Positions 6,873 through 15,759 of a stretch of DNA of 64,000 bases are shown piece by piece. Source of the stretch: Atribacterota bacterium (lineage in GTDB: Bacteria; Atribacterota; Atribacteria; Atribacterales; Caldatribacteriaceae); NCBI GenBank assembly GCA_039638595.1, contig JBDIWM010000002.1, forward strand, positions 1 to 64,000. The letters are read 5' to 3'. The notes below the pieces were generated by a model that was given only the letters and a program-made list of their open reading frames with translations, was not told the origin of the DNA and made no database searches. The position numbers and the translations under genes are program-made. How positions within the stretch are numbered: the first letter of the stretch is position 1; every line of letters starts with the position of its first letter.

Positions 6873-8607
6873 TCTTTGGCGGCTTTTGCGTTATCTCCGT
6901 CCCTATGGGTGGTATATCATGGGGGCTTTGTTGATGGCTCTTTTTGGCGCCGGCCTTAACCTCCTTCTGCCTTGGCTTTTGCGGGATACCATCGATCGGG
7001 TTCTCATTCAAAAGGATTTAAGACTTCTGATGTTTATTTCTCTGGGTGTCATTGTGATCTTTTTTGTAAAAGGGATTACCTCATATGCCCAGAATTTCTG
7101 GATTTCTCTGGCTGGTTTTCGGGCCATTACCAAACTCCGTTCAGACCTGTATCAGCATCTCCATTCTCTTTCGGCGTCCTTTTTTCAAGAAACACACCCT
7201 GGAGAAGTGATTTCTCGCATGACCAACGACATCACCATTCTGCAGAACCTATTTTCCAGTGTTTTTGTGAACATCATCATGGATTTTCTCATCTTTGCCG
7301 GTTCGGTAGTTTTCCTGTTTTTCATCCATTGGAAGCTGGCAGCGCTGTCGCTTCTCGTTTTTCCCTTGGTGGGGACGAGCGTCGATTACCTGGGCAAAAA
7401 AATCAAAAGTTTTTCGCATCTTTTGCAAAATAGAGCTGCGCTCCTCACTTCGCTCGTTGAGCGAGCTGTGACGGGAATGAAGATTATTCAATCGTATGTG
7501 AGCGGACACTATGAAGTGGAACGTTTTGAGCGGGAAAACGAAGTAAACTTTTACCTGGCCATGCAACAGGCCAAAGCCAAGGCCATTTTTACTCCCCTTG
7601 TAGAACTGGTTACTTCCTGCGGTATTATGGTGGTCATATGGTATGGGGGACGAGAAGTAGTTTACGGGAACCTCACCCCTGGAGGACTGATTGCTTTTCT
7701 GGGATATCTGGTCATTGCCTCTTCCCCGCTTTCACGTTTTTCGGCCGGCATTCAAACTCTACAGCAGAGTTTGGCTTCGGCGGAACGAATTTTCGAATTC
7801 CTAGACGTCCCTTCTCCCATTCAGGAGGATAAAGAAGCGACGGAGATTACTTCTGTTCGAGAAGGCATTGTTTTTCGAAATGTTTCCTTTGCCTATCGAG
7901 GAGAAGCAATTTTACGCCATTTCAATCTGAAAATCCGGTTGGGGGAAAAAGTGGGGATTGTTGGGCCAAGTGGAGCGGGAAAGACGACTCTCATTAACCT
8001 TTTGCTTCGTTTCTATGACCCAGATGAGGGAAGCATCGAAATTGACGGAGTGGACATCCGGCGATTTAGACTTTCAGCACTCCGTAATCTCATCGGAGTA
8101 GTGCTCCAAGATGCCCTAGTGCTGGGAGGCACTGTCCGGGAAAACATCCTCTATGGGGACTTGAAGGCGTCTTCCGAAGAGGTGTATACTGCTTCCTGCC
8201 GGGCGCATGCCCATGAGTTTATCGTGCATCTGGAAAATGGATATGATACCGATGTCGGTGAGGGAGGAAGTCGTCTCTCGGGAGGACAAAAACAACGAAT
8301 TGCCATTGCTCGGGCCCTGTTGAAAGACCCCCCTATCATGGTTTTTGATGAAGCCACTTCCAACCTGGATCCTGAGTCGGAACGATGCATTCTCAATACC
8401 ATCGCTCAGATTGAGGGGGATAAAATTGTGATTATCATTGCCCACTCCCTGAGAATGGTGCGCAACCTGGACCGGGTTGTCCTTGTGCAGGATGGAGAAG
8501 TCAAAGGGGAAGGAACGCATGAGGAACTGATGCGCTCCAACCCCTGGTATCGAGAGCTGTTTCAGGAAGAAGATTTGAGGGCCAGTTCTTTGAGAGATCT
8601 GCGGTAG
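6853..8607 (+). CDS. msbA: MsbA-type lipid A / lipid flippase ABC exporter
   Basis: 584 residues, a half-transporter with six transmembrane helices (about residues 15-300) fused to one ATPase domain. Walker A is GPSGAGKTT near residue 371, the Q-loop VVLQDALV, the signature RLSGGQKQR near 475, Walker B IMVFDEATSNLDP, and the H-loop IIAHSL. It would flip core lipid A across the inner membrane. It is the last gene of the lipid A run, starts 20 bp inside the upstream LpxB-like gene, and ends tail-to-tail over the DUF4416 gene by 46 bp. A general multidrug exporter cannot be excluded by sequence, but the context favours MsbA. Confidence 0.88.
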   Translation: MVKRSGSLWRLLRYLRPYGWYIMGALLMALFGAGLNLLLPWLLRDTIDRVLIQKDLRLLMFISLGVIVIFFVKGITSYAQNFWISLAGFRAITKLRSDLYQHLHSLSASFFQETHPGEVISRMTNDITILQNLFSSVFVNIIMDFLIFAGSVVFLFFIHWKLAALSLLVFPLVGTSVDYLGKKIKSFSHLLQNRAALLTSLVERAVTGMKIIQSYVSGHYEVERFERENEVNFYLAMQQAKAKAIFTPLVELVTSCGIMVVIWYGGREVVYGNLTPGGLIAFLGYLVIASSPLSRFSAGIQTLQQSLASAERIFEFLDVPSPIQEDKEATEITSVREGIVFRNVSFAYRGEAILRHFNLKIRLGEKVGIVGPSGAGKTTLINLLLRFYDPDEGSIEIDGVDIRRFRLSALRNLIGVVLQDALVLGGTVRENILYGDLKASSEEVYTASCRAHAHEFIVHLENGYDTDVGEGGSRLSGGQKQRIAIARALLKDPPIMVFDEATSNLDPESERCILNTIAQIEGDKIVIIIAHSLRMVRNLDRVVLVQDGEVKGEGTHEELMRSNPWYRELFQEEDLRASSLRDLR

Positions 8608-9107
8608 AGTTCTCGAATCTGGAATAAAATAGGACGGTATTCAGGACTCGCGTAATCTGGGTAGGTATAGGGGAAGGGACGGAAATCTCCTCGTTCCCAC
8701 TTAATGGTTGCTTCGGCAAAAATACCCTTTCCGATATAGACTCGGTGGGCAAAGTTTTTGGTGGTAGCCAGGACGATTTTCCCTCCGTCAAAGTATCCTG
8801 GGTCTAAATTGATTTTACGCTCTTTATGCTCATCTTTAGTCTTTTTCTCGATTTCATTGGTGGTCCATTTTATTTCGGAAAGCTGTCCAGGGTCAATGAG
8901 GGGTTTAAAAACCAGGAAAACCCGCACGAGGTTCGTTCCGATATCTCGATAATAATCGGTATACGTGAAGGGAACGGAAGGACTTTGCCATTCTATTTGG
9001 CCAAAGTGTTCCTGAAGCGGTTCGAGGACTCTTTGTAGCACCTTTTCTTCCTCATATAGAGTGGCAATGAAAAGCTTTACTGGTGGCGGTGGTTTGATCT
9101 CTCCCAT
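8562..9107 (-). CDS. DUF4416 family protein
   Basis: 181 residues, recognised as DUF4416, a conserved bacterial family without assigned function. Characteristic stretches are VKLFIATLYEEE, PFTYTDYYRDIG, KINLDPGYFDGGKIVLAT and RPFPYTYPDYA. There is no signal peptide and no membrane helix, so it is probably cytoplasmic. ATG 9107 is chosen because AGAGGTG lies six bases upstream; a GTG at 9116 is in frame but sits on that ribosome site. Its 3' end overlaps msbA on the other strand by 46 bp. Confidence 0.85.
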   Translation of the reverse strand: MGEIKPPPPVKLFIATLYEEEKVLQRVLEPLQEHFGQIEWQSPSVPFTYTDYYRDIGTNLVRVFLVFKPLIDPGQLSEIKWTTNEIEKKTKDEHKERKINLDPGYFDGGKIVLATTKNFAHRVYIGKGIFAEATIKWERGDFRPFPYTYPDYASPEYRPILFQIRELYRRSLKELALKSSS

Positions 9108-9210
9108 TTTTTTCACCTCTTTTCTATTCTACGTCAGAATAGCTTTCCTGATAAGATGGTTAAAAAGTGTTAAAATAAAAATGGAAACGGAGAAAGGTAG
9201 GGATAGGCGA

Positions 9211-9675
9211 ATGGTGTTACGTTTTGCTCCTGCAGAAATACTGGGTATGGCGGTGGAACTGGAAAGAAGAGGAATCGATTTTTATAGAAGACTTCAGGAA
9301 TCGGCTCATCAGGAAGCCAAAAAGGTATTTGCTTTCCTTGCCGAAGAGGAGGAAAAACACCTGGCTTTTTTCCGTGGTCTTTTGAACACTCTGGAAGTTG
9401 AAGAAACCCTCCAAGACAGCGAAGAGGAAACCCAATATCTGGGGTCTATCGTGGAAAACGGAATTCTGGGAAAAGTCCTAGCTGGTCAGGTTTTACCTTC
9501 TTCTCTTGCCGATGCTCTGGAAACCGGTGTCGCGGTGGAAAAAGAGAGCGTACTCTTCTACCAGGGTTTTATTCCTCTGGTCAATCCGACAAAGAGAGGG
9601 TGGCTGGAAGAGGTGATTGCAGAAGAAAAAAAGCATTTTCTGAAACTCGTTGCCCTGAGGAAGGAGATGGGATGA
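9211..9675 (+). CDS. Rubrerythrin / ferritin-like diiron protein
   Basis: 154 residues of the ferritin-like diiron family, usually peroxide-reducing in anaerobes. A four-helix bundle is suggested by paired E-x-x-H motifs: ELERRGIDFY with EEEEKHLAFF in the first half and EKESVLFYQGF with EEKKHFLKL in the second. No rubredoxin CxxC domain is present, so it is a short, rubrerythrin-like form. ATG 9211 is chosen for the AAAGGTAGGG ribosome site; ATG 9181 is in frame upstream. It is followed 1 bp later by the DJ-1/peroxiredoxin fusion gene, so it belongs to a redox operon. Confidence 0.8.
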   Translation: MVLRFAPAEILGMAVELERRGIDFYRRLQESAHQEAKKVFAFLAEEEEKHLAFFRGLLNTLEVEETLQDSEEETQYLGSIVENGILGKVLAGQVLPSSLADALETGVAVEKESVLFYQGFIPLVNPTKRGWLEEVIAEEKKHFLKLVALRKEMG

Positions 9676-9676
9676 T

Positions 9677-10645
9677 GTGGCCCGAAGAAGAGTGATGATT
9701 CTGGTAGAAAATCAGTACCAGGAACTGGAGTTGTGGTATCCTCTATTGCGCCTCCGGGAAGAGGGAATTGAGGCCCGGCTGGTAGGGACGAGTACTGAAG
9801 AAACCTTTTTGGGACGGCATGGTTTTCCAGCCAGGGCTGAAGTGATTACCTCTTCAGTCAGTTCCCGGGACTTTGATGGAATCATCATACCGGGTGGGTT
9901 TGCACCCGATTATCTTCGGCGTTTTCCGGTGGTACTAACCTTGGTACGAGAGTATTATCAGCAGGGAAAACTGATCGGGGCTCTCTCACGTGCACCCTGG
10001 GTGCTTATCTCTGCGGACATTGTGCGGGGAAAACGGATAACGGGGCTCTTCTCAATTAAAGACGATGTAGTCAATGCTGGGGGGGACTTTGTGAATCTGC
10101 CGGTTGTGGCTGATGGGAATATCATCACTGCTCAGGGTCCGGAAGAATTGCCTCTTTTCATGAAAGAAGTACTCCTTTTTTTATGGCAAAACTCCATTCG
10201 GATTGGTGAATCCTGTCCGGATAGCTGGCTTACCGATACGGGTGGAACTCGGGTTTTGCTCTCCCAGGTTATTGCCGGAAAAGGGGCAGTACTCCTTTTT
10301 TTTGATTCCGTGTTGAGTCCAAGCAGCGAGAAATTGTTGCCTGCGTATAACACTTTGAGTGACACCATTACGAAACGAGGTGGTCTTTTTATCGGTATTA
10401 GCTCCGATGCATTTTTTGTGCAGCGGGTATTCATCAACCGCTCTTCAGTTTCTTTCCCCCTATACAGTGATCCTGCTCTCGATACCATTAAGGCGTTTGG
10501 GGTGCTCTCTAGGGAGTACTTGGCAGCGTGGACGGTATTCATTGTCGACCGGAACGGGACCATCCGTTATGGGGAAAGCTGTCCTGGTGGTGATATCGAG
10601 ACGTTGCCCGGTTTCCAGAAAAAACTGGAAGTGATTTTAGGATAG
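9677..10645 (+). CDS. DJ-1/PfpI domain fused to peroxiredoxin-like domain, both without catalytic cysteine
   Basis: 322 residues. Residues 1-170 follow PfpI/DJ-1 closely (ELELWYPLLRL, IIIPGGFAPDYLRRFP, SIKDDVVNAGG, TAQGPEELP). The nucleophile elbow, normally AICHGPW, reads ALSRAPW, so Cys becomes Ser104 and His becomes Arg105. Residues 185-320 look like an AhpC/Bcp peroxiredoxin domain (VLLFFDS, FVQRVF, FPLYSDP, AFGVL, FIVDRNGTIRYGE). The peroxidatic TPxC site reads SPSS (214-217), and the conserved Arg position is Trp285. GTG 9677 is preceded by AAGGAG. Its role may be structural, sensory or binding rather than catalytic; function is not known. Confidence 0.75.
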   Translation: MARRRVMILVENQYQELELWYPLLRLREEGIEARLVGTSTEETFLGRHGFPARAEVITSSVSSRDFDGIIIPGGFAPDYLRRFPVVLTLVREYYQQGKLIGALSRAPWVLISADIVRGKRITGLFSIKDDVVNAGGDFVNLPVVADGNIITAQGPEELPLFMKEVLLFLWQNSIRIGESCPDSWLTDTGGTRVLLSQVIAGKGAVLLFFDSVLSPSSEKLLPAYNTLSDTITKRGGLFIGISSDAFFVQRVFINRSSVSFPLYSDPALDTIKAFGVLSREYLAAWTVFIVDRNGTIRYGESCPGGDIETLPGFQKKLEVILG

Positions 10646-10657
10646 GGAGGGATGTGG

Positions 10658-11302
10658 ATGTTCCTGCAGAACAAAGATCGGCAGGCGTTAGCGGCATTTT
10701 TGCGCGAAAACCTGGTTCAGCCAGTGTATCTCCGTTTTTTCACTCAGGAGCTGGAGTGTGAGACCTGCCAGGATACACGGGCACTCCTCCAAGAGGTAGC
10801 GGAACTTTCTCCCTTACTTCACCTGGAGGTTTTTCATTTTCTTGTGGATCAGGAGAAGGCCAAGGCATACGGCATTGACAAAGTTCCTGCGACTGTGGTT
10901 GCAGGAGAAAACGACTATGGGATTCGTTTTTATGGCATTCCTGCAGGCTATGAATTTTCCGGGCTTGTGGAGACCCTGGTCTGGGTATCGCGTCGTTCCA
11001 CAGACCTTGAGGAGGAGACCAAAGCTTTTTTACGTGCGCTCTCACGGCCAGTGACCATTCAGTCTTTTGTCACGGTAACCTGTCCTTACTGCCCGCAGGC
11101 TGTGGTGCTTTCCCACAAGATGGCGATAGAAGGGTCTTTAGTGCGTTCGGAAATGGTGGAGGTGACAGAGTTTCCTCATCTTGCCTATCGCTATGGTGTG
11201 AGTGCGGTTCCCAAGGTGGTGATCAACGATTCGGTTTCCTTTGAGGGGGCGTTACCGGAAGCACATTTTCTGGCCAAAGTAAAAGAAGCCATTACCGGAT
11301 AA
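10658..11302 (+). CDS. Protein disulfide oxidoreductase, two thioredoxin folds
   Basis: About 214 residues, of the thermophile PDO/glutaredoxin-like type: two tandem thioredoxin folds. The first half carries CETC (about 34-37) and the cis-proline region KVPATVV; the second carries CPYC (about 142-145) and AVPKVVI. Such proteins make or reduce disulfides in the cytoplasm of thermophiles and can take electrons from thioredoxin reductase. ATG 10658 is chosen because GGGAGG is seven bases upstream; ATG 10652 is only one base from it. It lies 12 bp after the cysteine-less DJ-1/peroxiredoxin gene, so a partnership is plausible. Confidence 0.82.
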   Translation: MFLQNKDRQALAAFLRENLVQPVYLRFFTQELECETCQDTRALLQEVAELSPLLHLEVFHFLVDQEKAKAYGIDKVPATVVAGENDYGIRFYGIPAGYEFSGLVETLVWVSRRSTDLEEETKAFLRALSRPVTIQSFVTVTCPYCPQAVVLSHKMAIEGSLVRSEMVEVTEFPHLAYRYGVSAVPKVVINDSVSFEGALPEAHFLAKVKEAITG

Positions 11303-11332: not shown

Positions 11333-12391
11333 ATGAGTGGAAGAATGAAGGCTGCGGTGATGAAGGGAATCGGGAAAATCGAAATTGAAGAGCTTCCCAT
11401 ACCAATTCCCGGAGATGAGGAGGTATTAATTCGTATCAAAAGCGTGGGAGTATGTGGTTCGGATGTGCATTACTTCGTGGAAGGAAAAATTGGTGATTAT
11501 GTGGTGCAGCCTCCTTTTATTCTGGGTCACGAATGTTCTGGAGAAGTGGTGGAAGTCGGCAGTCGGGTAAAAAACCTTCGCCCTGGAGACCGGGTAACCA
11601 TGGAGCCAGGTATTCCCTGTGGAAAATGTGAATTCTGTCGCTCGGGTCGGTATAACCTCTGTCCAGATGTGGTGTTCTGGGCTACCCCACCCATCGATGG
11701 AACGTTCTGTGAATATGTTACCCATCCGGCCTATTTTACCTATCCGATTGGGTCTTCAGTGAGCTTTGAAGAAGCGGCACTGGTGGAACCACTTTCGGTT
11801 GGTTTCTATGCCGTGCGCAGGGCTCAGGCGGAACCAGGACAGGTGGCGCTCATTCTGGGCAGTGGTCCTATTGGCTTGGTGACGCTGGAAATGCTTTTAG
11901 CACGGGGAATAACCGAGGTTATCGCAGTTGATATTTCTCCTCTTCGGCTGGAAAAGGCCAGGGAACTCGGCGCTCAGTATGTGGTCAATGCCAAAGCGGA
12001 TGATTTGAAAAAAACAGTAATGGAAATCACCCGGGGTCGGGGTGTGGATGTGGTGTTTGAAACGGCTGGAAGTGTGATCACCACCCAGATGACGGTAGAG
12101 CTAGTGCGTAAAGGGGGTAAAGTGGTTCTCATTGGCCTTCCTTCGGTGGCCCGGGTGGATTTTGACGTGATTAAGGTCATCGATAAAGAACTGGATGTGC
12201 TGGGAATTTTCCGCTATGCCAATACCTATAAGGGTTGTGTGGATCTCCTCAACGCAGGGAAAGTGAACCTGGCCACGCTTATCACCCATCGTTTTTCGCT
12301 GGACAGGGCTCAAGAAGCCCTGCAGTTTGCTCACCAGCATAAAATGGACGCCATCAAAGTGGTGGTAAACGTGGGAGATGTGATTACTTGA
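11333..12391 (+). CDS. Zinc-dependent sorbitol/xylitol-type dehydrogenase
   Basis: 352-residue medium-chain dehydrogenase, closest to sorbitol, xylitol and L-iditol 2-dehydrogenases. Catalytic zinc ligands are in VCGSDVHYF and LGHECSGEVVE; the structural zinc has four cysteines in CGKCEFCRSGRYNLC. GDRVTMEPG precedes it. The NAD site is LGSGPIGLVTLEML, with an acidic residue at the end of the second strand (VIAVDIS), favouring NAD over NADP. The ribosome site is AAAGGGAGG. It follows the redox genes by 30 bp and precedes the thiamine promoter; substrate cannot be fixed from sequence. Confidence 0.85.
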   Translation: MSGRMKAAVMKGIGKIEIEELPIPIPGDEEVLIRIKSVGVCGSDVHYFVEGKIGDYVVQPPFILGHECSGEVVEVGSRVKNLRPGDRVTMEPGIPCGKCEFCRSGRYNLCPDVVFWATPPIDGTFCEYVTHPAYFTYPIGSSVSFEEAALVEPLSVGFYAVRRAQAEPGQVALILGSGPIGLVTLEMLLARGITEVIAVDISPLRLEKARELGAQYVVNAKADDLKKTVMEITRGRGVDVVFETAGSVITTQMTVELVRKGGKVVLIGLPSVARVDFDVIKVIDKELDVLGIFRYANTYKGCVDLLNAGKVNLATLITHRFSLDRAQEALQFAHQHKMDAIKVVVNVGDVIT

Positions 12392-12540: not shown

Positions 12541-12572
12541 AAAAACCATCTACCGCTGGTAGATGGTTTTTT
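12541..12572 (+). terminator. TPP-riboswitch expression platform: terminator and antiterminator
   Basis: Stem CCATCTACC (12546-12554) pairs with GGTAGATGG (12558-12566), extended by an A-run and T-run, giving a Rho-independent terminator. CGCTGGTA (12554-12561) inside it is the exact complement of TACCAGCG (12513-12520) in the aptamer. An 8-bp antiterminator can therefore form only when the aptamer is not folded. Confidence 0.88.
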
Positions 12573-12589
12573 ATTTGGAGGTGAAAAGG

Positions 12590-13102
12590 ATGGATAAACA
12601 CGTGCGTCTTCTGGCGTATACCGGGCTTTTTGTAGCTCTGGGTGTGGTTGCTTCTGGGGTACATATTCCGGTTGGACCGACCAAAGTGTTCCCTTTTCAA
12701 CATGCCTTGAACGTGCTGGCAGGCATTAGCGTTGGGCCCTGGTATGGAGCGTTGGCGGCTTTTATTACCGGAGTTTTACGCATCATGCTGGGTACTGGTA
12801 CCATTTTTTCTCTCCCTGGAGGCATTCCAGGAGTGGTGGTGGTGGGATATTTCTATCACTATGTGAAGCGGAGCGACTGGATGGGGTTGCTGGAACCCTT
12901 AGGTACAGGACCAGTCGGGGCGACTCTGAGTACCTATGTGGTGGCACCACTTGTGGGGCGAAGTGCAACGCTCTTCTTTTTCCAGAGCGCGTTCCTTTTG
13001 AGTAGCATCCCGGGAAGCATTGTGGGGTTGCTCCTCGTCAAGATACTGCGCAGAATGGTTGATTTAGAAACATGGAGGAGAGAACCATGTCGATTGAAGT
13101 AA
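12590..13102 (+). CDS. thiW: ThiW, substrate-binding (S) component of an ECF thiazole transporter
   Basis: 170 residues, hydrophobic, with five or six membrane helices. The ThiW hallmark is the conserved first loop HIPVGPTKVFPFQHALNV and FSLPGGIPG. It binds the hydroxyethylthiazole moiety of thiamine and needs the shared ECF ATPases and EcfT, which are not in this window. ATG 12590 follows TTGGAGGTGAAAAGG. It is the first gene after the riboswitch, and its end overlaps cytX by 16 bp. Confidence 0.9.
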   Translation: MDKHVRLLAYTGLFVALGVVASGVHIPVGPTKVFPFQHALNVLAGISVGPWYGALAAFITGVLRIMLGTGTIFSLPGGIPGVVVVGYFYHYVKRSDWMGLLEPLGTGPVGATLSTYVVAPLVGRSATLFFFQSAFLLSSIPGSIVGLLLVKILRRMVDLETWRREPCRLK

Positions 13103-14331
13103 TTCCAAAAGAACGCCGTACTCTTGGAAGTGGGGATTTCTTCCTTCTCTGGATGGGTGCAGCCATCGCCATTTCTGAAGTCTGGGCGGGGGGGATACTC
13201 GCACCCTTAGGATTTATCTGGGGAATGGGGGTGATTCTTGTGGGGCATCTTATCGGAAATGTTCCATTTGCCCTGGGTGGTGTTTTGGGAAGTGATTGGG
13301 GTATTCCATCGATGGTATCAACTCGGTTGGCTTTTGGTGCCAAAGGGTCGTATCTGGCCTCGATTCTCAATGTCGTTCAGCTTCTTGGCTGGACAGCAGT
13401 CATGGTCATTATCTGTGCTCGTTCTACGGATCTCATTATGCAATCTCTTTTTCACTTCAGTAATTTCCGATTGTGGATTCTTCTTGCTGGCCTGGTGAGT
13501 ACTTTCTGGGCACTGATTGAAACCGAATGGTGGAAGTGGATGCAGAGAATTGCAGTCGGAGCACTAGCGGTTCTCTCGGGTCTCATGACCTATGTGGCCC
13601 TCCGCAGTGTTTCCTGGTCCACGTTGATTGCGTTTCCAAGAGAGAGTACGCTTCCTTTGGGTATGGGCCTTGATCTTGTCATTGCCATGCCCATCTCCTG
13701 GCTACCGCTTGTGGCTGACTATGCCCGTTTTGCCAGAAACACAAAAGGGGCGTTTTGGGGAACGTTTCTGGGATATTTTATCGCCAGTTCCTGGATGTAC
13801 ACTGTGGGTCTCATAAGCGCCCTGGCGACCAAGAATCCGGATCCGTTGCCGGGTATGGTTTCCATGGGCCTTGGTGTGGCAGCGCTTTTTGTCGTCCTTT
13901 TTTCCACATTTACCACCACCTTTCTTGATATCTATTCGGCTGGAGTCTCGTTTCTCAACCTTTTTCCTCGTTTGCGAGGGCGGTGGGTGACGATTCTTTT
14001 TGGTTTAGGGGGGACGATTCTGGCGCTTATCTTCCCCATGGAGGAGTACGAAAAATTTTTACTCTTCATCGGGGCGATCTTTGTCCCCCTCTTTGCGGTG
14101 GTTCTTTTTGATTATTTTCTCGTACGCCGTCGGAACATTGATCTCGGCGAGGCTCTTGAGGGAAGAAAAACTGTTGATTTTGGGGCTATGGTGTCCTGGA
14201 TAGGGGGTGTGATAATATATCTCCTTTTTACTTTTTTCTTATCCGGTCTCGGCGCTTCTTTGCCTAGCTTTTTTGTGGCTGGGATCTTTTATCTTTTGTT
14301 AAAGAGAGGATGGCGATGGAGAGAAATTTGA
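13087..14331 (+). CDS. cytX: CytX, NCS1-family putative hydroxymethylpyrimidine permease
   Basis: 414 residues with about 12 membrane helices, NCS1 (cytosine/allantoin permease) family. Motifs include LGSGDFFLLWMGAAIAI, the IPSMVSTRLAFGAKGS segment and MPISWLPLVADYARFAR, which matches the second signature of cytosine permeases. CytX members under TPP riboswitches are predicted HMP importers. ATG 13087 is chosen for the GGAGGAG seven bases upstream. It sits between thiW and thiM, so the operon imports both halves of thiamine. Confidence 0.88.
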   Translation: MSIEVIPKERRTLGSGDFFLLWMGAAIAISEVWAGGILAPLGFIWGMGVILVGHLIGNVPFALGGVLGSDWGIPSMVSTRLAFGAKGSYLASILNVVQLLGWTAVMVIICARSTDLIMQSLFHFSNFRLWILLAGLVSTFWALIETEWWKWMQRIAVGALAVLSGLMTYVALRSVSWSTLIAFPRESTLPLGMGLDLVIAMPISWLPLVADYARFARNTKGAFWGTFLGYFIASSWMYTVGLISALATKNPDPLPGMVSMGLGVAALFVVLFSTFTTTFLDIYSAGVSFLNLFPRLRGRWVTILFGLGGTILALIFPMEEYEKFLLFIGAIFVPLFAVVLFDYFLVRRRNIDLGEALEGRKTVDFGAMVSWIGGVIIYLLFTFFLSGLGASLPSFFVAGIFYLLLKRGWRWREI

Positions 14332-15125
14332 AGGAAAAAGGTGTGGAAGTATTCCGGCGTATCCGGGAGTCAAAACCCTTGGTGCACCATATCACGAATC
14401 TTGTGGTGACCAATGACAATGCCAATACCATGCTGGCTGTGGGGGCTTTACCGGTCATGGCCTACGCCGAGGAAGAAGTGGAAGAAATGGTGACTCATGC
14501 CCAGGCTCTGGTGCTCAACATTGGGACTCTGACTCAGGAAGTGGTGCGGAGCGCAATTTTGGCCGGGAAAAAGGCCAATGCCCTGGGGATACCTGTAGTT
14601 TTTGATCCAGTGGGAGTGGGAGCGACCTCCTTTCGTACTGCGAGTGCCCAAGCGATTTTACGAGAGGTGAAAGTGGCTGTAGTAAGGGGCAATGCGGCAG
14701 AGATTGCTGCTCTTTTGGGAAGAGAAGCCCGCATTCGAGGCGTGGAATCGTCAGATGTTCTTTTGGATCCATTTCGTCTTACTCAGGAGGCGGGAAAAAT
14801 CCTGGGTACCACTGTAGCGGTAACTGGTAAAATTGATTTTGTGAGTGACGGAGAGAGAACGGCAATTATTCAGAATGGAGACTTCCTCCTGACCCGAGTT
14901 ACCGGAACTGGCTGTATGGCTACTTCCCTGTGCGGAGCCTGTGTGGCAGTGGAAAGGGATATGTTTCTTGCTGCTTCTTTCGCGCTGGGATTTCTGGGAG
15001 TTTGTGCGGAAATCGCTGCGACCTTATCCCGAGGTCCGGGGAGTTTCCATTACACACTGTTTGATGTCATGTATGCATTAACCGAAGAGGAATTTGTTCA
15101 GCGTTTGCAGATGGAGGTCGTATAG
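14310..15125 (+). CDS. thiM: Hydroxyethylthiazole kinase ThiM
   Basis: 271 residues, ribokinase-like fold. Phosphorylates 4-methyl-5-(2-hydroxyethyl)thiazole. Signatures are LVHHITNLVVTNDNANTML, the VFDPVGVGAT substrate-site motif, RGNAAEIAAL, and the anion-hole/catalytic region LTRVTGTGCMAT, in which Cys replaces Asp as in the whole ThiM family. Starts at 14310 or at ATG 14316 after AAAGAGAGG. It overlaps cytX by 22 bp and thiE follows one base after its stop. Confidence 0.94.
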   Translation: MAMERNLKEKGVEVFRRIRESKPLVHHITNLVVTNDNANTMLAVGALPVMAYAEEEVEEMVTHAQALVLNIGTLTQEVVRSAILAGKKANALGIPVVFDPVGVGATSFRTASAQAILREVKVAVVRGNAAEIAALLGREARIRGVESSDVLLDPFRLTQEAGKILGTTVAVTGKIDFVSDGERTAIIQNGDFLLTRVTGTGCMATSLCGACVAVERDMFLAASFALGFLGVCAEIAATLSRGPGSFHYTLFDVMYALTEEEFVQRLQMEVV

Positions 15126-15126
15126 C

Positions 15127-15759
15127 ATGGATCTTTCGCTGTATGTCATTACAGATCGAACGATTGAGGCCCCTCGAAGTAACGTCGAAGTTGCGAGAGA
15201 AGCCGCTAGAGGAGGGGCATCGGTTATCCAGTTACGGGAAAAAAGGGCGTCTACTAAAGTTTTTCTGGAGGAAGCTCTGGAACTGCGAAAGCTCACCAGA
15301 GATGAGGGGGTGCTTTTGATTATCAATGACCGGTTGGACGTTGCCCTGGCCGTTGAGGCTGATGGTGTTCATTTAGGAGAAGAGGACATGCCCATTTCTT
15401 ATGCGCGTCGTCTTGCTCCTTCGCTTCTTATTGGTGTGTCCTGTGACACCGAAAAAAAAGCTCGGGAACTGGAGGCACTGGGTGCTGATTATCTGGGGGT
15501 AGGAACGGTTTTCCCCACATCGACCAAAAAGGATGCTGGTGAGCCCATTGGACTTTTGCGTCTGCGCCAGATTAAGGAAGCGGTGAAGATACCGGTGGTG
15601 GCCATTGGAGGTATTACGCTCGATAATGTCGAAGAAGTGCTGGCTACCGGAGTTGATGGTGTGGCGGTTGTTTCGGCTGTGGTGGGGGCTTCTTCGCCTT
15701 TTGAGGCAGCTCGGGCATTTCGCCAGAAAATCGATACCTTTTGGAGCAAAAAGCGATGA
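15127..15759 (+). CDS. thiE: Thiamine-phosphate synthase ThiE
   Basis: 210 residues, TIM barrel joining HMP-PP and thiazole phosphate to thiamine phosphate. Motifs are YVITDR, VIQLREKRAS, LLIINDRLDVAL, ADGVHLGEEDMP, LGVGTVFPTSTKKDAG (phosphate loop) and PVVAIGGITLDN. GGAGG lies upstream of ATG 15127. Its stop codon overlaps the start of thiL (ATGA). Confidence 0.95.
   Translation: MDLSLYVITDRTIEAPRSNVEVAREAARGGASVIQLREKRASTKVFLEEALELRKLTRDEGVLLIINDRLDVALAVEADGVHLGEEDMPISYARRLAPSLLIGVSCDTEKKARELEALGADYLGVGTVFPTSTKKDAGEPIGLLRLRQIKEAVKIPVVAIGGITLDNVEEVLATGVDGVAVVSAVVGASSPFEAARAFRQKIDTFWSKKR

Follow-up and report, generated by a model that had tools for sequence, protein, structure and literature searches.

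What might a protein do that joins two redox domains, neither of which keeps the residues of its chemistry? This question is raised by a gene in the window (the whole stretch of 64,000 nucleotides that was analysed), which encodes a DJ-1/PfpI domain followed by a peroxiredoxin-like domain, and for which a sequence-only reading had noted that both catalytic cysteines are missing.

Domain architecture of the fusion protein

9677..10645, + strand: DJ-1/PfpI-peroxiredoxin-like fusion gene, 322 aa, GTG start, present in 24 of the 25 genomes of the order
9686..10174, + strand: DJ-1/PfpI domain, residues 4-166 (Pfam PF01965, 142.6 bits; Foldseek 3fse, 1g2i)
10202..10570, + strand: peroxiredoxin-like domain, residues 176-298 (Pfam PF00578, AhpC-TSA, 65.6 bits; nearest solved structures the Bcp-type peroxiredoxins 3hjp, 2ywn and 2cx3)

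The open reading frame is uninterrupted and starts one base past the stop codon that ends the gene before it. Both Pfam matches are well above the cut-off, confirming the two-domain assignment that had been made from the letters of the sequence. The DJ-1 half also matches TIGR01382 (143.5 bits against a cut-off of 139.05) and has the profile and fold of the DJ-1/PfpI family, with rmsd values of 0.8 A to 3fse and 1.0 A to PH1704 (1g2i) over about 165 columns at 33-36% identity. By both profile and Foldseek, its closest relatives are PfpI-type and not Hsp31-type. The second half has the profile and the thioredoxin-like fold of a peroxiredoxin; its top sequence match is Bcp4 of Sulfolobus solfataricus (3hjp, E 2.6e-12), which is also among the Foldseek matches (TMt 0.80). 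Structure prediction, proposed earlier as a check, yielded a confident AlphaFold2 single-chain model of the two-domain fusion (pLDDT 94.5, pTM 0.90). Foldseek against viral proteins returned nothing useful.

Fate of the catalytic residues

9986..9991, + strand: Ser104-Arg105 in place of the usual Cys-His at the DJ-1 nucleophile elbow (alignment to PH1704)
10325..10327, + strand: Ser217, where peroxiredoxins have the peroxidatic Cys (SPSS instead of TPxC; from alignment with Bcp-type peroxiredoxins of solved structure)
10529..10531, + strand: Trp285 at the conserved peroxiredoxin Arg (same alignment)

Alignments to PH1704 and to the Bcp-type peroxiredoxins bear out the three replacements read earlier from the sequence. 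The Cys-His pair of the DJ-1/PfpI elbow is absent from the window protein, and so are both marks of a peroxiredoxin, the Cys of the (T/S)PxC motif and the active-site Arg. Gln15, at the position of PH1704 Glu12, was considered as a further lost residue and set aside, since many single-domain relatives with an intact Cys-His have Gln there too.

Residues were counted in 23 readable copies out of 24. The copy left out, in G019 (L130, 4600-5460), has a frameshift and a gap that spans the DJ-1 elbow, perhaps through an assembly error. No Cys occurs at the peroxidatic position, which is occupied by Gly (9 copies), Ala (7), Ser (4), Phe (2) or Ile (1), and position 285 is Trp in 22 of the 23. Because the peroxidatic Cys is absent from every readable copy, the peroxiredoxin-like domain was probably dead at, or shortly after, the fusion event.

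The elbow of the DJ-1 domain has a different history. Ser-Arg is found in 11 copies, which are all 11 of the window's family, and Cys-His is retained in eight, all of family f3; the remaining four have Gly-His (G013 and G012) or His-His (G014 and G016). All 52 single-domain DJ-1 relatives examined (L079 excluded) have Cys-His. On a tree with the two elbow columns masked, three changes are needed to account for these states, and a tree forced to group the Cys-losers is disfavoured, at a marginal AU p of 0.041. The branching of f2 and f4 differs between two trees. The DJ-1 Cys was thus probably lost more than once within the order, as judged from these sequences; given the marginal p value and the unstable placement of f2 and f4, this is likely but short of proof.

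The statement that both domains have lost their cysteine is therefore right for the window protein, but merges two histories, as the loss is order-wide in the peroxiredoxin-like domain and confined to some families in the DJ-1 domain. It also overlooked three things: one family retains the DJ-1 Cys, Trp285 is fixed as a trait of the family, and Cys302 in the tail is conserved. Near relatives with Cys at both sites, which would have made this a local loss, were sought among the 23 readable copies and none was found. A fusion without the full pair of cysteines is an order-wide trait.

Distribution

The one genome of the order in which the fusion was not found, G008, is 75% complete, and the close relatives of the window include Candidatus Caldatribacterium, in the phylum Atribacterota. 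Elsewhere in the phylum, DJ-1 matches are single-domain only, with no fusion. In a comparison of the peroxiredoxin-like half with 291 genomes, matches outside the order lie in open reading frames of 159-234 aa and reach only 25-33% identity. When about 85,000 species were scanned with exact short patterns, with 80 of 148 matches kept, both halves appeared together only in the window's relatives, and a distant fusion could escape such patterns. One match across both domains, L079 (Omnitrophota), was rejected as a fusion, since its peroxiredoxin match lies in an ORF of its own, which keeps TPVC intact. This ORF (L079, 6001-7270) is Tpx-like and lies close to the DJ-1 match, apparently joined to a pterin-dehydratase-like tail.

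Neighbouring genes

9211..9675, + strand: ferritin-like di-iron protein, rubrerythrin family, 154 aa and lacking a rubredoxin domain (PF02915; nearest structure TM1526, 1vjx)
10652..11302, + strand: protein disulfide oxidoreductase (PDO) with CETC and CPYC (TIGR02187, 270 bits, cut-off 185)
11333..12391, + strand: zinc-dependent alcohol/polyol dehydrogenase-like gene, the last of the conserved cluster (profile matches)

The ferritin-like gene is directly upstream of the fusion, on the same strand, in all 24 loci. Its product is modelled as helical (pLDDT 88.0), a four-helix bundle with ExxH di-iron ligands; E16, E18, E47xxH50, E110, E112 and E139xxH142 are invariant in nine aligned copies. The listed ORF start at 9061 overlaps a divergent DUF4416 gene (8562-9116), and the ATG at 9211 is the more plausible start, as it better fits the relatives. 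The earlier account of the flanks, with a rubrerythrin-family gene before the fusion and a PDO carrying CETC and CPYC after it, stands, refined by the more plausible start at 9211 and the missing rubredoxin domain. Single-domain rubrerythrins can be functional (PMC5114695).

The PDO has two thioredoxin folds, assigned from the profile match, each with a CxxC (CETC and CPYC/CPFC, both conserved). It lies between the fusion and the dehydrogenase in 13 loci, of families f1 and f4 only. No full-length PDO was found in the order away from the fusion, and families f2 and f3 are without it. The idea that PDO goes with loss of the DJ-1 Cys was discarded, as family f2 and G013 have lost the Cys yet have no PDO. 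The dehydrogenase follows in the same orientation in 23 of the 24 loci, and in the remaining one the contig ends.

Three further observations concern the surroundings. At L124 (G017) a gap of about 1.4 kb between fusion and dehydrogenase holds an extra 392-aa ORF on the opposite strand, absent there from the other loci and possibly a mobile element. In the window, 12563-15759 contains apparent genes of thiamine transport and salvage (an ECF-type membrane protein, a permease and a ThiM-like kinase, as read from translations). An LpxB-like gene before 5403 had been suspected to be broken, but a tblastn match runs through it.

Other redox proteins of the genome

Peroxiredoxins with intact motifs are encoded elsewhere in the window's genome (L131, TPVC; L133, TPGC), so the peroxiredoxin-like domain of the fusion is not needed as a peroxidase. 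The same genome has no further DJ-1/PfpI protein apart from one partial match, L142, which is read as a PurQ-type amidotransferase. An AhpC-TSA match below the Pfam cut-off (L140, G000:C3:16599-16979), in a frame without TPxC, may represent a further Cys-less redoxin-like protein.

Selection

Pairwise dN/dS is 0.02-0.07 in the DJ-1 half, the slower-evolving of the two, and 0.05-0.20 in the peroxiredoxin half; several pairs are saturated at synonymous sites, and single values are rough. The family that lacks the DJ-1 Cys shows ratios no higher than the one that keeps it. Both domains are clearly under strong purifying selection. The view, taken from the sequence at the outset, that this is not simple decay is supported by these low ratios, by conservation across the order and by the confident AlphaFold2 model.

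Proposed role and its rivals

With both chemistries gone from the window's protein, selection retained and the pairing with the ferritin-like gene fixed, the best-supported role, put forward tentatively, is that of a pseudo-enzyme serving the ferritin-like protein, and PDO where present, as adaptor or stabiliser. The scaffold role for the neighbours that had seemed plausible from the sequence gains weight from the invariant pairing in 24 of 24 loci. The DJ-1/PfpI family forms oligomers (dimer or hexamer) with a shared active site, and PH1704 is oligomeric. The fusion would be a selected pseudo-enzyme, in which the peroxiredoxin pocket now holds a fixed Trp and the PfpI-type DJ-1 domain is Cys-less in some families. 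Its PfpI domain would form an oligomer as PH1704 does, and would bind or stabilise the ferritin-like di-iron product of the adjacent upstream gene. The peroxiredoxin-like domain may offer a docking surface for the ferritin-like protein and, where present, PDO. Such a complex would support the handling of peroxide or iron by the ferritin-like protein, with no thiol peroxidase or deglycase chemistry of its own.

Physical contact with the ferritin-like protein or PDO is indirectly suggested by gene order, by the 3fse fusion and by the PDO-Bcp4 pathway. Ava_4496 (3fse), which the DJ-1 domain matches best in structure, itself carries a fused ferritin-like domain, and PDO reduces Bcp4 of S. solfataricus (PMC7465337). 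However, the idea that 3fse is directly homologous to the ferritin-like partner was rejected, with no sequence match at E 1 and no place among the top 50 folds, and since the window's ferritin-like protein does not match it, the argument from a fusion elsewhere is loose. PDO cannot be the sole partner, because two families keep the fusion without it. Against an adaptor, gene order may persist without physical contact, and a conserved Cys302 could mean leftover chemistry.

10580..10582, + strand: Cys302, part of the tail motif ExCPxGDxxxLPGF and retained in 21 of 23 copies

That cysteine is the basis of a rather unlikely alternative, in which Cys302 is a new redox or metal-binding site, relocated and formed with Trp285, Asp210-Ser211, Arg297 and Glu300, and reduced by PDO where PDO is present. 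Cys302 is the only cysteine in six of the copies (L007-L011 and L014). Little or no variation is seen at Asp210, Ser211, Pro215, Trp285, Asp291, Arg297, Glu300, Cys302, Gly305 and Leu-Pro-Gly-Phe 310-313, and none at E300, R297, G305 and the Leu-Pro-Gly part of LPGF; the 13 loci with an adjacent PDO would supply a reductant. However, two copies have Trp at position 302, full-length PDO is missing from families f2 and f3, and the residue may be just structural. Its nearness to the old pocket is deduced from thioredoxin-fold topology, by which Cys302, directly past the last strand of the peroxiredoxin fold, is expected near the old active-site end. Unlikely too is the broader reading, by which the order has a redox or metal-binding module of its own: a peroxiredoxin fold that lost its active site and was rebuilt around Cys302 and Trp285, sitting on a PfpI platform and working with the ferritin-like di-iron protein.

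A chaperone or stabiliser, in which the dead DJ-1 domain protects its partner or clients under heat and oxidative stress, like the C-terminal domain of large-subunit catalases, is unlikely but, like the relocated Cys302 site, still a serious rival. The isolated domain of Neurospora crassa CAT-3, which is Cys-free, acts as a chaperone (PMC10135305), and the Hsp31-derived C-terminal domain stabilises catalases (PMC9137513). Two fusion proteins match Pfam Catalase_C weakly (E 7.5e-5), and the relatives are thermophilic. The closest relatives of the domain are, however, PfpI-type, and a general holdase leaves both the fixed ferritin-like pairing and the conserved tail motif unexplained.

Improbable is a ligand sensor or serine hydrolase, whose DJ-1 pocket still binds a metabolite or whose Ser104 is a new nucleophile: the slow evolution of the DJ-1 domain (dN/dS 0.02-0.07) and the fixed Ser-Arg of the window's family would fit, but related copies have Gly or His at position 104, which cannot serve as a serine or cysteine nucleophile, and the His partner is Arg in the window's family. 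That the protein is decaying and functionless, as two domains without catalytic residues might suggest, is scarcely credible, being contradicted by purifying selection (dN/dS far below 1 in both domains over many pairs) and by 23 of 24 copies that are open and syntenic, the sole broken one, with its missing stretch and frameshift, being possibly misassembled.

Relation to known systems

The PfpI-type DJ-1 proteins (PH1704/1g2i of Pyrococcus horikoshii, YhbO of Escherichia coli) and Ava_4496 (3fse) share with the fusion the fold, the glycine-rich loop and the sequence of the surrounding pocket. By contrast, the window protein has its Cys-His replaced and a peroxiredoxin-like domain fused. Ava_4496 also resembles the locus in its association with a ferritin-like domain, although in the window the ferritin-like partner is a separate gene. 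With Bcp/PrxQ-type peroxiredoxins such as Bcp4 (3hjp) the fusion has fold and sequence profile in common, and a PDO gene is nearby in two fusion families. Unlike them, it has no peroxidatic Cys in any copy, Trp in place of Arg, and a C-terminal tail remodelled with Cys302.

In large-subunit catalases, a DJ-1-superfamily (Hsp31/DJ-1-like) C-terminal domain is likewise placed on an antioxidant-type domain, and is Cys-free in N. crassa CAT-3 (PMC10135305, PMC9137513), so that a Cys-free DJ-1-type domain on an antioxidant enzyme is already known. There the Hsp31-derived domain sits on an active heme catalase, whereas the partner domain of the window fusion is itself dead. The window protein is not of this type, its domain being PfpI-type with no catalase domain, and the weak Catalase_C match occurs in two relatives only. 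In AtDJ-1c of Arabidopsis both DJ-1 domains lack the catalytic Cys and are reported without glyoxalase III activity (PMC4702089). This plant protein is a tandem of DJ-1 domains with no peroxiredoxin part, unlike the fusion. Cys-less DJ-1 domains as such are thus already known from AtDJ-1c and the CAT-3 C-terminal domain. A limited literature search found no paper on a DJ-1-peroxiredoxin fusion, and nothing on point for Cys-less peroxiredoxins or Caldatribacterium rubrerythrin.

What sets this fusion apart is that both of its redox domains are stripped of their chemistry yet kept under purifying selection throughout the order, with a ferritin-like gene next to them in every locus. The order also provides a natural series at the DJ-1 elbow (Cys kept, Gly, His, Ser), which raises the question of the job of a DJ-1 domain without its cysteine. 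In this heat-loving Atribacterota bacterium and its order, a fusion conserved despite the loss of reactive cysteines suggests a protein that holds or serves its neighbours, and not one that acts as a peroxidase or deglycase.
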